Of a stretch of DNA of 49,252 nucleotides, positions 9,769 to 49,252 are shown one piece after another (within the stretch, counting starts at the first letter, position 1; every line of letters begins with the position of its first letter). The notes below the pieces were generated by a model. That model searched no databases and was not told where the DNA came from. It was given only the letters and a program-made list of their open reading frames with translations. Made by a program: the position numbers and the translations under genes. Source of the stretch: Angustibacter sp. Root456 (GTDB lineage: Bacteria; Actinomycetota; Actinomycetes; Actinomycetales; Angustibacteraceae); the NCBI RefSeq assembly GCF_001426435.1, contig NZ_LMER01000020.1:82571-131822 (forward strand). The letters run 5' to 3'.

Positions 9769-10545
9769 ATGGCCAAGCGCATCGACATCAAGGACCTCAA
9801 CGCCTACTACGGCGGTTTCAAGGCGGTCGAGGACGTCACCATGACCGTCGAACCGCGGTCGGTCACGGCCTTCATCGGGCCGTCCGGCTGCGGCAAGTCG
9901 ACGTTCCTGCGCACCCTCAACCGCATGCACGAGGTCGTGCCCGGCGCGCGCGTCGAGGGCTCGATCCGGCTCGACGACCGCGACCTGTACGCCCGCGAGG
10001 TCGACCCCGTCGCCGTACGCCGCACCGTGGGCATGGTGTTCCAGCGGCCCAACCCCTTCCCCACGATGTCGATCTTCGACAACGTGGCAGCCGGGCTGCG
10101 GCTGAACGGCATGCGCGACAAGCGGAAGGTGGCCGAGGTCGTCGAGGGCTCGCTGCGGGGCGCGAACCTGTGGAACGAGGTCAAGGACCGGCTCGACAAG
10201 CCCGGCGCGGGCCTGTCGGGCGGGCAGCAGCAGCGCCTCTGCATCGCGCGCGCGATCGCCGTCGAGCCGCAGGTGCTGCTCATGGACGAGCCGTGCTCGG
10301 CGCTCGACCCCATCTCGACCCTCGCCATCGAGGACCTCATCACGACGCTGAAGGCGAAGTACACGATCGTGATCGTCACCCACAACATGCAGCAGGCGGC
10401 GCGGGTGTCCGACCGCACGGCGTTCTTCAACCTCGCGGCCACCGGCGAGCCGGGCCGCCTGATCGAGATCGGCGACACCGCGCGGATCTTCAGCAACCCC
10501 ACCGAGCAGGCCACCGAGGACTACATCTCCGGCCGCTTCGGCTGA
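9769..10545 (+). CDS. pstB: Phosphate ABC transporter ATPase PstB
   Basis: PstB powers phosphate import by ATP hydrolysis. The 258-residue protein has a complete ABC cassette: Walker [10 protein letters not shown], the Q-loop segment [12 protein letters not shown], signature LSGGQQQR, Walker B VLLMDEP and switch histidine in IVTHNMQQA. Family length is normal. GGGAA about 12 bases upstream serves as ribosome binding site. Seven bases after the stop begins the first 75-base palindrome, which can terminate the operon. Confidence 0.98.
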
Positions 10546-10552
10546 GTTCTCC

Positions 10553-10627
10553 CGCAGATACCCGCCTTCTTCCGGTTCCGAACCCCCGTTTCGGGGTTCG
10601 ATCGCCGGAAGAAGGTGGGTATCTGCG
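10553..10627. repeat. 75-base nested palindrome, copy 1
   Basis: The outer arms are 23 bases each (10553-10575 and 10605-10627) with a single mismatch, which would be a G-U pair in RNA. The 29-base centre contains an 8-bp inner hairpin (CGAACCCC/GGGGTTCG). A second copy with the same outer arms, same total length and a different inner hairpin lies at 11678-11752. It can serve as terminator for pst, but the sequence conservation between copies suggests a repetitive-element origin. Confidence 0.9.
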
Positions 10628-10636
10628 TTGTCCACA
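10628..10636 (+). promoter_or_regulatory. DnaA-box-like nonamer abutting palindrome copy 1
   Basis: TTGTCCACA begins at the base after the palindrome ends. It equals the preferred actinobacterial DnaA box. A single box away from oriC could be chance; its exact abutment to the repeat is the reason to note it. Confidence 0.4.
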
Positions 10637-10678
10637 GGGTCGCGGCAGCGGGGGCCGCGATCTTGACAGGCTGGACCG

Positions 10679-11707
10679 GTGCCCACCGACCCCCCGCTGC
10701 CGCGGATCTTCACCCGCTCCGACGCTCTGGCCGCCGGCCTCACCCGCCACGCGGTGGCCCACCGGCTCGCCACGTGCCGCTGGCGCACCATCGGCCGAGG
10801 CGCCTTCTGCCTGCAGCAGCAGTGGGACGCCGCGGACGCCCGCAGCCGGCACGTGCTGCACGTGCTCGCCGAGAGCCGGTACGACGAGGGGCTGGTCATC
10901 AGCCACGAGTCAGCAGCCGCCGTGCACGGCTGGCCGGTGCCTTGGGCCGGCTACTCACTCGCGACGTTCACCGACGGGCGCGCGAACGGCAAGAACCTGC
11001 GCTCGGCTCACCGACTGGTGCGCGCGGCGCCTCTGGCCGCACCGGACGTCGTCGCTCGGGAGGGGCTGCGGGTCACCAGCCCTGCGCGCACGGCTGCGGA
11101 CGTGCTGCGCCACCTTCCGGCGTCCGAGTCCGTGGCCATGGTCGACGTCGCTCTACGCCTGGGGCAGACGTCGCGTGCGGCCATCGACGAGGTGCTGCGG
11201 CGGCAGGCCGGCTGGACGCACGTCCCGCGGGCACGTCTGGCCCGGGAGTGGCTGGATCCACGACGCGACAGCTACCTGGAGTCGTCGTCGTTCGCGCTGC
11301 TGGCCAGCCGCGGCATCCTGCCGCCGCTCAGCCAGGTGCACGTGTACGACGCCGCCGGGCGCTTCGTGGGAATCGTCGACGGGCTGTGGCTGCCAGAAGG
11401 GGTCGTCGGGGAGTGCGATGGCCGGTCGAAGTACGACCTGGACGTCATCGGGCGGCTCGACCCGGTCGAGGCTCGCCGTCAGATCCTGCGGGAGAAGGCG
11501 CGGGAGGACGCGCTGCGCAGCACCGGGCTGGGCGTCGTCCGATGGGGCACGTACGAGGTGCGCCACCGGTTGGATGACCTGGCGACCACGGTGCGGTCGG
11601 CCCTGGCGCGGGGCGGCCTGACCAGGTTCACGGGGCAGCTGCGCTGGAGCTCCTCACCCACCGACCTGGTCGACCTGCGCAGATACCCGCCGTCTTCCGG
11701 CTCCTAG
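10679..11707 (+). CDS. Orphan AbiEi-like / DUF559-type protein
   Basis: A 342-residue protein of the actinobacterial family labelled type IV toxin-antitoxin AbiEi antitoxin domain. Residues about 1-50 form a winged-helix-like region (LPRIFTRSDALAAGLTRHAV, then WRTIGRGAFCL). The middle has VISHESAAAVHGWPVP. The C-terminal part resembles DUF559/Vsr-like PD-(D/E)XK folds, with possible acidic residues in YLESSSFALL, VGIVDGLW and GECDGRSKYD. No AbiEii nucleotidyltransferase toxin lies next to it. The GTG start has no ribosome binding site. The last residues and the TAG stop lie inside palindrome copy 2, and copy 1 lies upstream. The gene interrupts the pst/pit block. Function unknown; nuclease activity is inference. 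Confidence 0.75.
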   Translation: MPTDPPLPRIFTRSDALAAGLTRHAVAHRLATCRWRTIGRGAFCLQQQWDAADARSRHVLHVLAESRYDEGLVISHESAAAVHGWPVPWAGYSLATFTDGRANGKNLRSAHRLVRAAPLAAPDVVAREGLRVTSPARTAADVLRHLPASESVAMVDVALRLGQTSRAAIDEVLRRQAGWTHVPRARLAREWLDPRRDSYLESSSFALLASRGILPPLSQVHVYDAAGRFVGIVDGLWLPEGVVGECDGRSKYDLDVIGRLDPVEARRQILREKAREDALRSTGLGVVRWGTYEVRHRLDDLATTVRSALARGGLTRFTGQLRWSSSPTDLVDLRRYPPSSGS

Positions 11708-11752
11708 GGCCCATTTTGGGCCGGATCCACCGGAAGAAGGCGGGTATCTGCG
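11678..11752. repeat. 75-base nested palindrome, copy 2
   Basis: Arms 11678-11700 and 11730-11752 are 23 bases with one mismatch. The 29-base centre holds a 5-bp inner hairpin (GGCCC/GGGCC, loop ATTTT). The outer arms match those of copy 1 except for single bases. It overlaps the last codons and stop of the AbiEi-like gene and ends eight bases before the pit stop codon, so it can terminate both convergent genes. Confidence 0.9.
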
Positions 11753-11760
11753 GGAGGAGG

Positions 11761-12759
11761 TCAGGCGAAGAGGCGGGTGATGAGGTAGCAGGCGGCGGCG
11801 ACCAGTCCGGCGCCGGGGAAGGTGAGGATCCAGGCGCCCACGATGTTGCCGGCGACGCCCCAGCGCACGGCCGACAGCCGCTTGGTGGCGCCCACGCCCA
11901 TGATCGAGGAGGTGATCGTGTGGGTCGTGGAGATCGGCGCTCCGAAGCCGATGCCGGCGACGTACAGCACCGCCGACGCCGTGGTCTCGGCCGCGAAGCC
12001 CTGCGGCGGGTCGAGGTGGATGATCCGGCGTCCGAGCGTGCGCATGATGCGCCAGCCGCCGGCGTAGGTGCCGGCGGCCATCACCGCGGCGGTGGTGAAG
12101 TACACCCACAGCGGGATGTCGGTGCCGGTGTGGAAGTTGCCGACGTTGAGGGCGAGCACGATGACGCCCATGGTCTTGGCGGCGTCCTGGAGGCCGTGGC
12201 CGAGAGCCATCGCGGCCGCCGAGAGGGTCTGCGCGCTGCGGAACCCACGGCTGACGCGGCCGGGGTTGGCGCCGCGGAACAGCCACAGGATCGTCAGCAT
12301 CACCAGGTAGCCGAGCACCACGCCGACGACGGGCGAGATGACCATCGGGATGACCACCTTGTGGAAGATCCCGGCCCACAGCACGGTGGCGCCAGCCGCG
12401 ATCGCCGCGCCGCCCAAGCCCCCGATGAGCGCGTGGGACGACGACGACGGCAGCCCGAACCACCAGGTGAGCAGGTTCCAGCCGATGGCGCCGACCAGCG
12501 CGGCACCGACGATCGCGAGGCCGTTGAGCGAGGACGTCGCCGAGACGTCGATGATCCCCTCGCCCACGGTCTTGGCGACCTTGGCACCGAAGAACGAACC
12601 GACGAGGTTGCCGACGGCAGCCAGGCCCAGGGCGATGCGCGGCGTGAGCGCCCGGGTCGAGACCGACGTCGCGATGGCGTTCGCCGCGTCGTGGAACCCG
12701 TTGGTGTAGTTGAACACCATGGCAAGCACGATCACCAGGACGACGGTGAAGAGCTCCAC
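11761..12759 (-). CDS. pit: Low-affinity inorganic phosphate transporter (Pit family)
   Basis: Pit proteins import metal-phosphate complexes with a cation gradient. The 332-residue protein has about ten predicted membrane segments and both copies of the family signature: FNYTNGFHDAANAIATSVST near the N-terminus and MALGHGLQDAAKTMGVI in the middle. GLPSSSSHALIGGL and FGAPISTTHT are also typical. I chose the GTG at 12759 because AAGGAG ends 11 bases upstream; a CTG overlapping the previous stop is less likely. It follows the DUF47 gene by five bases, so the pair is an operon. The end abuts palindrome copy 2. Confidence 0.95.
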   Translation of the reverse strand: MELFTVVLVIVLAMVFNYTNGFHDAANAIATSVSTRALTPRIALGLAAVGNLVGSFFGAKVAKTVGEGIIDVSATSSLNGLAIVGAALVGAIGWNLLTWWFGLPSSSSHALIGGLGGAAIAAGATVLWAGIFHKVVIPMVISPVVGVVLGYLVMLTILWLFRGANPGRVSRGFRSAQTLSAAAMALGHGLQDAAKTMGVIVLALNVGNFHTGTDIPLWVYFTTAAVMAAGTYAGGWRIMRTLGRRIIHLDPPQGFAAETTASAVLYVAGIGFGAPISTTHTITSSIMGVGATKRLSAVRWGVAGNIVGAWILTFPGAGLVAAACYLITRLFA

Positions 12760-38926: not shown

Positions 38927-39003
38927 TGGAGCCGCCTAAGGGAATCGAACCCTTGACCTACGCATTACGAGTGCGTCGCTCTGGCCGACTGAGCTAAGGC
39001 GGC
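38927..39003 (-). tRNA. tRNA-Thr (anticodon CGT)
   Basis: A 77-base cloverleaf with encoded CCA. The acceptor stem is GCCGCCT/AGGCGGC, the anticodon stem ACGCA/TGCGT closes the loop CTCGTAA (anticodon CGT, reading ACG), and the T arm is AAGGG-TTCGATT-CCCTT. All stems pair fully. It lies between the amidase and hydrolase genes, and a terminator hairpin follows. Confidence 0.97.
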
Positions 39004-49220: not shown

Positions 49221-49252
49221 GGAGTGTCACCCACTGAACGTGATCAACGGGG

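Follow-up and report, generated by a model that had tools for sequence, protein, structure and literature searches.

The closest described systems are the REP/REPIN palindromes and their RAYT (TnpA-REP) genes. According to three papers (PMC2817692, PMC3733652 and PMC6006769), each repeat family has one gene, which lies between two inverted repeats; copies are scattered between genes near convergent stops (REPs are located near convergent gene ends, PMC3733652), families are species specific, several gene-repeat pairs occur per genome, and the gene is stable (REPtrons are apparently immobile as a unit and the REPs are likely mobilized, PMC6006769). The word Actinobacteria is absent from the main text of all three. 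The actinobacterial locus described here is like these systems in each of those features, and it differs from them in its protein, which is of the AbiEi-HTH/DUF559 type and not a Y1/HuH transposase, and in its palindromes (family K1), which are long dyads of one length without a GT[AG]G foot. As the system has neither a RAYT-type protein nor that foot on its K1 arms, we class it, as far as its sequence tells, as RAYT-like and not as a RAYT member.

Two further systems resemble the protein. Like AbiE type IV toxin-antitoxin systems, it has an N-terminal AbiEi-like helix-turn-helix (HTH) region; unlike them, it has an added nuclease-like domain, and no member of the AbiEii nucleotidyltransferase family was found among the ten neighbors of five genes of this type in the genome. 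It shares an E...D...ExDG core with the DUF559/MTES_1575/Vsr-like endonuclease domains (we take the DUF559/MTES_1575-type domain to be related to Vsr), as well as matches to MTES_1575 (in the paralogue L092) and to the structure 3hrl_A, and differs from them in having a palindrome partner; no palindromes linked to DUF559 or AbiEi genes are described in the open-access literature that we found, which leaves most subscription papers and preprints outside. We read the gene and its palindromes as cognate partners in the manner of REP and RAYT, with an unrelated protein in the place of the RAYT, and put the probability of this reading at roughly 0.65. That protein and palindrome belong together as a pair is strongly supported by the comparisons below; the protein is predicted to cut and spread the palindrome. 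Many related genes of other actinobacteria likewise lie between copies of palindromes of their own, which suggests an undescribed partnership of a nuclease family with small spreading DNA hairpins.

The window, by which we mean the whole stretch of 49,252 nucleotides that was analyzed (G000:C20:82571-131822), comes from the 3.84 Mb genome of Angustibacter sp. Root456 (G000); its features are collected in Table 1. The sequence-only reading had described two 75-base elements with nearly identical 23-base arms and different inner parts, flanking exactly one gene between pstB and a convergent pit. All of this was borne out: both elements are exactly 75 bp long, the four 23-base arms agree with zero to one mismatch (mean arm matches in 100 shuffles of the window, 0.00), the inner parts differ between left and right, and the ABC ATPase and PHO4-type neighbors fit the names given to them. 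Positions 10549-10576 and 11729-11756 form a perfect 28-base inverted match. At the Rfam gathering score the window has a single match, a tRNA at 38930-39003, and none at the palindromes; microRNA matches there lie far under the Rfam cut-off, and we rejected a known RNA as the identity of K1.

Table 1. Features of the bracketed gene and its surroundings, in window coordinates
Feature	Position	Strand	Remarks
Left 75-bp palindrome, family K1	10553..10627	.	Arms CGCAGATACCCGCC-N5-CCGG facing each other, 29-base center
Right 75-bp palindrome, family K1	11678..11752	.	Holds the final codons and stop of the bracketed gene
Bracketed gene, 342 aa, GTG start	10679..11707	+	AbiEi-like HTH and DUF559/MTES_1575-like PD-(D/E)XK-type domain
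Part coding for AbiEi_4-like helix-turn-helix, residues 9-45	10703..10813	+	Below Pfam cut-off; PADLOC AbiEi models
Part coding for nuclease-like core, residues 198-287 (E201, D234, E245-x-D247-G248, R275)	11270..11539	+	63 homologues
Octamer TCCACAGG	10631..10638	+	Inside TTGTCCACAGG (10628-10638), between palindrome and gene, 48 bases ahead of start codon
Upstream neighbor, ABC transporter ATPase (pstB of the sequence-only reading)	9769..10545	+	
Convergent neighbor, PHO4-type phosphate transporter (pit of the sequence-only reading)	11761..12759	-	

The 23-base arm is not unique to this locus: the genome holds 19 K1 elements, the two at the gene and 17 dispersed ones, when a search with a fixed gap (18 elements) is pooled with one in which the arms were exact and the gap could vary from 40 to 70 bases (16 elements). 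The constancy of length rests on the variable-gap search, since a fixed gap cannot reveal length; 15 of its 16 elements are exactly 75 bp, and the sole exception is stretched by an NNN assembly gap. The dispersed copies lie mostly at the 3' ends of genes, many within about 30 bases of a stop codon, and the genes beside them appear mutually unrelated (judged from the starts of their sequences only). An arm found beside unrelated genes in the manner of an ordinary terminator was to count against a linked unit; most copies do have that position, and the same holds for REPs (PMC3733652).

The exact-armed K1 pattern was absent from 98 relatives, of which one is of the same genus and two are of the same family, and the K1 core CAGATACCC does not occur outside these palindromes in 335 kb of the genome's own sequence. 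Other identities that we considered for K1 were rejected. Two Flavobacteriales matches in contigs of named genomes (a collection that may omit records near this genome) are a different, shorter repeat. Ten viral contigs with a loose form of the pattern, one with the same 71-base span, resemble chance matches and do not make K1 a phage or plasmid element; relatives of the window protein were absent from viral contigs, phages and plasmids at the limits used. DNA uptake sequences form inverted pairs at gene ends and are species specific, in both of which K1 is like them; it differs in that single arm cores are absent from the same 335 kb.

Strong hairpins are predicted for all 18 gap-free K1 copies (-38.6 to -63.7 kcal/mol). 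In columns 15-19, 56 of 90 positions pair with the mirror position; combining arms from different copies gives 39.6 on average, and none of 5,000 such shuffles reached 56. In the seven columns from 24 on pairing is rarer than expected (28 of 126 against 40.7), with 4,974 of 5,000 shuffles as high or higher; in both comparisons the shuffles ignore the kinship of the copies. Because pairing lies above the shuffles in the one set of columns and below them in the other, paired changes seem to maintain the stem, and a ring of unpaired bases inside it seems to be maintained too, while the center drifts. Among bracketing copies outside K1, six changes are compensatory against 66 that break a pair in one copy.

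Hairpins of this strength favor the possibility that the palindromes are two-way terminators of the host, homogenized in sequence, and that the gene's place between two of them is incidental. So does their position: 11 of the 19 K1 copies lie between convergent genes (five are tandem and three divergent) compared with 37 of 262 other gene pairs (p = 3e-5), often within the short distance of stop codons given above. Against it, no T run follows the hairpin in the 12-base flanks of the 18 copies on either strand (the first 12 bases of either end also lack a GTAG or GTGG foot in all 18), and three further findings, on bracketing, arm spacing and protein clades, weigh on the same side, so that we consider terminators a decidedly unlikely explanation.

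The first of these is bracketing. The score of a gene was its best match without gaps, direct or inverted, between the 300 upstream bases and the downstream flank. A single-sequence search of the genome gave four further AbiEi/DUF559-type genes, and all five (the window gene and these paralogues) are bracketed, each by its own repeat; only six of 256 genes in the sample scored 20 or more, namely these five and one gene that adjoins one of them and carries a third copy of the same repeat. A profile search at E 1e-12 found a match in at least 34 of 39 genomes of the order, this genome included. From the profile matches listed we took 60 further loci in rank order (59 from relatives and one from this genome, its sixth such gene, which ranks last and scores 18), leaving out genes already included, one cut by the end of its contig and the two ranked immediately before the last. 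Among the 49 loci with a gene call, 36 scored at least 18, a score that no control gene out of 315 in these stretches attained (the best had 17), and 16 of the 19 genomes in this set have at least one bracketed gene; for the other 11 loci, which the codon model gave no gene call and whose borders were therefore set by the match, with slightly wider windows, eight scored 20 or more. In total 44 of the 60 are bracketed and 16 lack a bracket at threshold. Among named genomes, five relatives were found in plasmid records and four are bracketed: one in Arthrobacter sp. ERGS1:01 (L246, score 27), two in Arthrobacter sp. StoSoilB13 (22 and 30) and one in Tsukamurella tyrosinosolvens NCTC13231, annotated as a DUF559 domain-containing protein (40); the Nonomuraea gerenzanensis relative is not (11). 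The link between gene and palindrome first proposed for a single locus is thus general to the gene family, and shared-repeat bracketing of this kind, absent from the controls, is what incidental placement between terminators would have to account for.

The bracketing repeats are themselves dispersed families, mostly intergenic (position was tested for K1 and a few sites of G028, a genome of another taxonomic family). K2, GTGATCATGCACG, brackets the gene L091 and its relative L174 in the sister species G001, and exact 13-base copies number 99 and 85 in the two genomes, with none for the reversed pattern. Arms of the L090 family match at 58 places in this genome and 27 in G001 (reversed controls, 1 and 0), and those of the L092 family at 14 and 25 (0 and 2). 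The G028 repeat occurs 21 times there, twice in a genus mate and not at all in four other genomes. Family A, which brackets the G001 counterpart of the window gene, gave 92 arm matches at 35 sites in G001 (control 25) and 33 in this genome (control 14). Besides K1, the counts thus cover K2, the L090, L092 and G028 families and family A. Three palindromes of the named genomes were sought in 72,556 plasmid records, a collection without the chromosomes of these strains and one in which a count of places may include both strands of one palindrome: that of Tsukamurella was found in eight records of this genus that share one source, and weakly in three places outside them, one of StoSoilB13 only in that strain's two plasmid records (21 and 20 places), and that of ERGS1:01 at 17 places in its own record, besides weak matches in ten others. 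Strong matches were therefore restricted to records of the same organism. A search for dispersal of distant families inside the 60 loci was uninformative: loci of the same genome gave one match and those of other genomes 31, and two GC-rich 13-base cores accounted for 28 of these.

In the families tabulated (L090, L092, G028 and A) the distance between facing arms is as a rule set to the base: 67 in 10 of 11 pairs of the L090 family here and in seven of seven in G001, 27 in all four and all eight pairs of the L092 family, and 34 in all ten pairs of the G028 family. Family A is the exception and takes a few values, its distances in G001 stepping by about 19 (53 in 24 pairs, 34 in 17 and 72 in six), with eight pairs one base longer. 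Such spacing argues against host terminators, which also leave unexplained why one arm type goes with one protein clade. Related proteins have related arms. Relatives in this genome and G001 that are 58% to 64% identical have arms in common (L090/L173, L091/L174 and L092/L177); and of eight genes of this type that carry a TGATC[AT]TG-type motif on each side, seven fall in one clade of nine among 63 proteins, which spans four taxonomic families (the clade was named after the tree had been seen, which makes the p-value optimistic, and the tree was read without branch support). In other cases the repeats differ: L232 and L228 are 53% identical and their repeats differ, and the pst-linked genes of G001 and G003 (a genome of another genus), 41% to 43% identical to the one in the window, each have their own repeat, K1 here, family A in G001 and a third in G003, with bracket scores of 28, 30 and 20.

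The sequence-only reading gave the protein an HTH start and a possible PD-(D/E)XK nuclease-like end. The HTH is weakly supported by Pfam (AbiEi_4 at 19 bits, under the cut-off of 25, although L090 and L137 exceed it) and better by the PADLOC AbiEi models (1.6e-10). For the nuclease-like end the case comes from relatives: the window protein itself has no Pfam nuclease match, and some relatives match under the Pfam cut-offs (L092 to MTES_1575 at 6.8e-8 and to DUF559 at 5.5e-4, both below cut-off). Across 63 aligned homologues, E201 and G248 occur in every sequence; 62 have D234, 61 have E245, 62 have D or E at position 247, and 62 have R275. A profile built from seven proteins reaches the solved structure 3hrl_A at E 0.034; a single-sequence structure model of the window protein was too poor for use (mean pLDDT 34). 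Among the matches listed for the seven proteins at E up to 10, Y1_Tnp does not occur, and AbiEi_4, DUF559 and MTES_1575 do. The ABC ATPase neighbor has a weak match to AAA_21, a family whose description mentions AbiEii, but its match to ABC_tran is far stronger.

An AbiEi-type HTH also invites the view that the palindromes are operators, through which the protein represses itself and a regulon in the manner of AbiEi, its nuclease-like domain being a relic. AbiEi binds inverted repeats, and every bracketed gene has a copy upstream, as the definition of the test demands. Yet the gene is also followed by a copy, K1 elements are mostly behind genes and only three of the 19 lie between divergent ones, and the nuclease core has kept its acidic residues almost without exception. 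In addition, many of the genes have a different, shared element near the promoter position: 37 of 55 such genes have TCCACAGG or its complement in the 250 bases ahead of them, compared with three of 315 controls, often 48 to 50 bases ahead of the start codon. We think the operator explanation unlikely. The octamer, like the longer TTGTCCACAGG, resembles a DnaA box. Its association is weaker than bracketing: it was found at only one of 11 held-out loci and is absent from L137, for a total of 38 of 67.

With the cognate pair as our preferred reading, comparison with G001 and other genomes bears on what moves. The prediction of a precise gain or loss of the gene at the pstB-pit junction did not hold, as the gene is present beside pstB in this genome, G001 and G003 (between pstB and pit in the first two, which are of one genus; pit was not seen in G003). 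In Arthrobacter sp. ERGS1:01 the relative (L246) lies, with one further gene, between pit and pstB. Because of that second instance the phosphate-locus position is either old or repeatedly chosen, and the gene's constant place beside pstB, in three genomes from two genera, means that the complete unit moves little. Gain or loss was seen for the palindrome instead. For 15 of the 17 dispersed K1 sites the neighbors were queried in G001, and 13 sites were located: four keep both neighbors and have no palindrome (L076, L082, L085 and L086, with the neighbors of L082 judged by eye because its global alignment with G001 is poor), at three the same end of the gene bears family A (L075, L077 and L087), two carry K2 (L073 and L083), and four have changed or unclear neighbors. 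No target-site duplications were seen between filled and empty sites, which are too diverged to judge.

Five family A matches in this genome stand in pairs with the same 53-base spacing as in G001. Degenerate family A pairs (for example, G000:C20:336301/336354) are apparently relics without a partner gene. Family A may be the older family, decaying in this lineage after the pst-linked protein switched to K1.

The gene is inverted relative to its neighbors at two of the four places shared with G001 (L092/L177 and L232/L228), and not at L090/L173 or the pst locus. Inversion at two places, together with the absence of common neighbors around L091 and L174 (64% identical) in the stretches compared, would suit a homing-type selfish gene that invades palindromes, the dispersed ones being empty targets or scars. 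Against this, palindromes stay on both sides, so that a filled site would still be cut; arms far outnumber genes, the pst-linked gene keeps its place and the ERGS1:01 relative, too, lies between pit and pstB. We regard homing as highly improbable.

The idea that gene and palindromes form a unit comparable to REP and RAYT is therefore supported by the 19 elements, the general bracketing and the repeat families proper to the genes tested; the protein is predicted to drive the movement. The sequences show bracketing, dispersal, set arm spacing, family specificity, the link of one arm type to one protein clade and conserved residues like those of an active site, whereas binding, cutting, copying, termination and the replacement of old families are predictions. 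We count against the cognate-pair reading the 16 loci and the Nonomuraea gene without brackets, the constant place of the gene by pstB, the high controls of family A, the scarcity of compensatory changes, the rarity of the octamer at held-out loci and the window protein's negative Pfam result for a nuclease. As we envisage the mechanism, each AbiEi-HTH/DUF559-type protein would recognize one dyad, that is, two facing arms at a set distance; its HTH would bind the arms as duplex, cruciform or single-strand hairpin, and its PD-(D/E)XK-like domain would nick or cut the dyad, which repair or replication might then copy to new sites. These would lie mostly just behind stop codons because a hairpin does least harm there, and a dyad so placed may act as a two-way transcript end. 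The gene would be a master locus, stable for the most part, that is flanked by two copies of its dyad and able to invert between them, and a change in protein specificity would let a new family spread and the old one decay.

In wider terms we lean toward regarding the AbiEi/DUF559-type proteins as a second, independently evolved machinery for recognizing, cutting and spreading dyads of set length, RAYT-like without RAYTs, probably with several pairs per genome, with specificities that shift in the course of evolution, and in many cases with a promoter whose DnaA-box-like site could couple the system to replication. In actinobacteria these proteins are annotated as antitoxins, DUF559 proteins or hypothetical proteins. 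If the reading is right, it would give a function to a gene family common in actinobacteria (see the genomes searched above), explain many dispersed palindromes of high-GC genomes and mean that the REP/RAYT way of life evolved on two occasions from different nucleases; it would also supply dozens of natural protein-target pairs for the study of binding specificity.

Two other repeat families are represented in the window. An exact arm of the L090 family, GTTGATCACGTTCAGTGGG, lies at its right end (49230-49248, minus strand), and two facing copies of the K2 motif GTGATCATGCAC lie at 9-20 and 142-153, the gene that K2 brackets (L091) being on contig C3. In the literature searched, this 12-base K2 core occurs in a yeast primer and in a predicted ArgR site near Streptomyces coelicolor SCO5864 (PMC5839063), in neither case as a repeat. 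The predicted ArgR site may in fact belong to a repeat family resembling K2.
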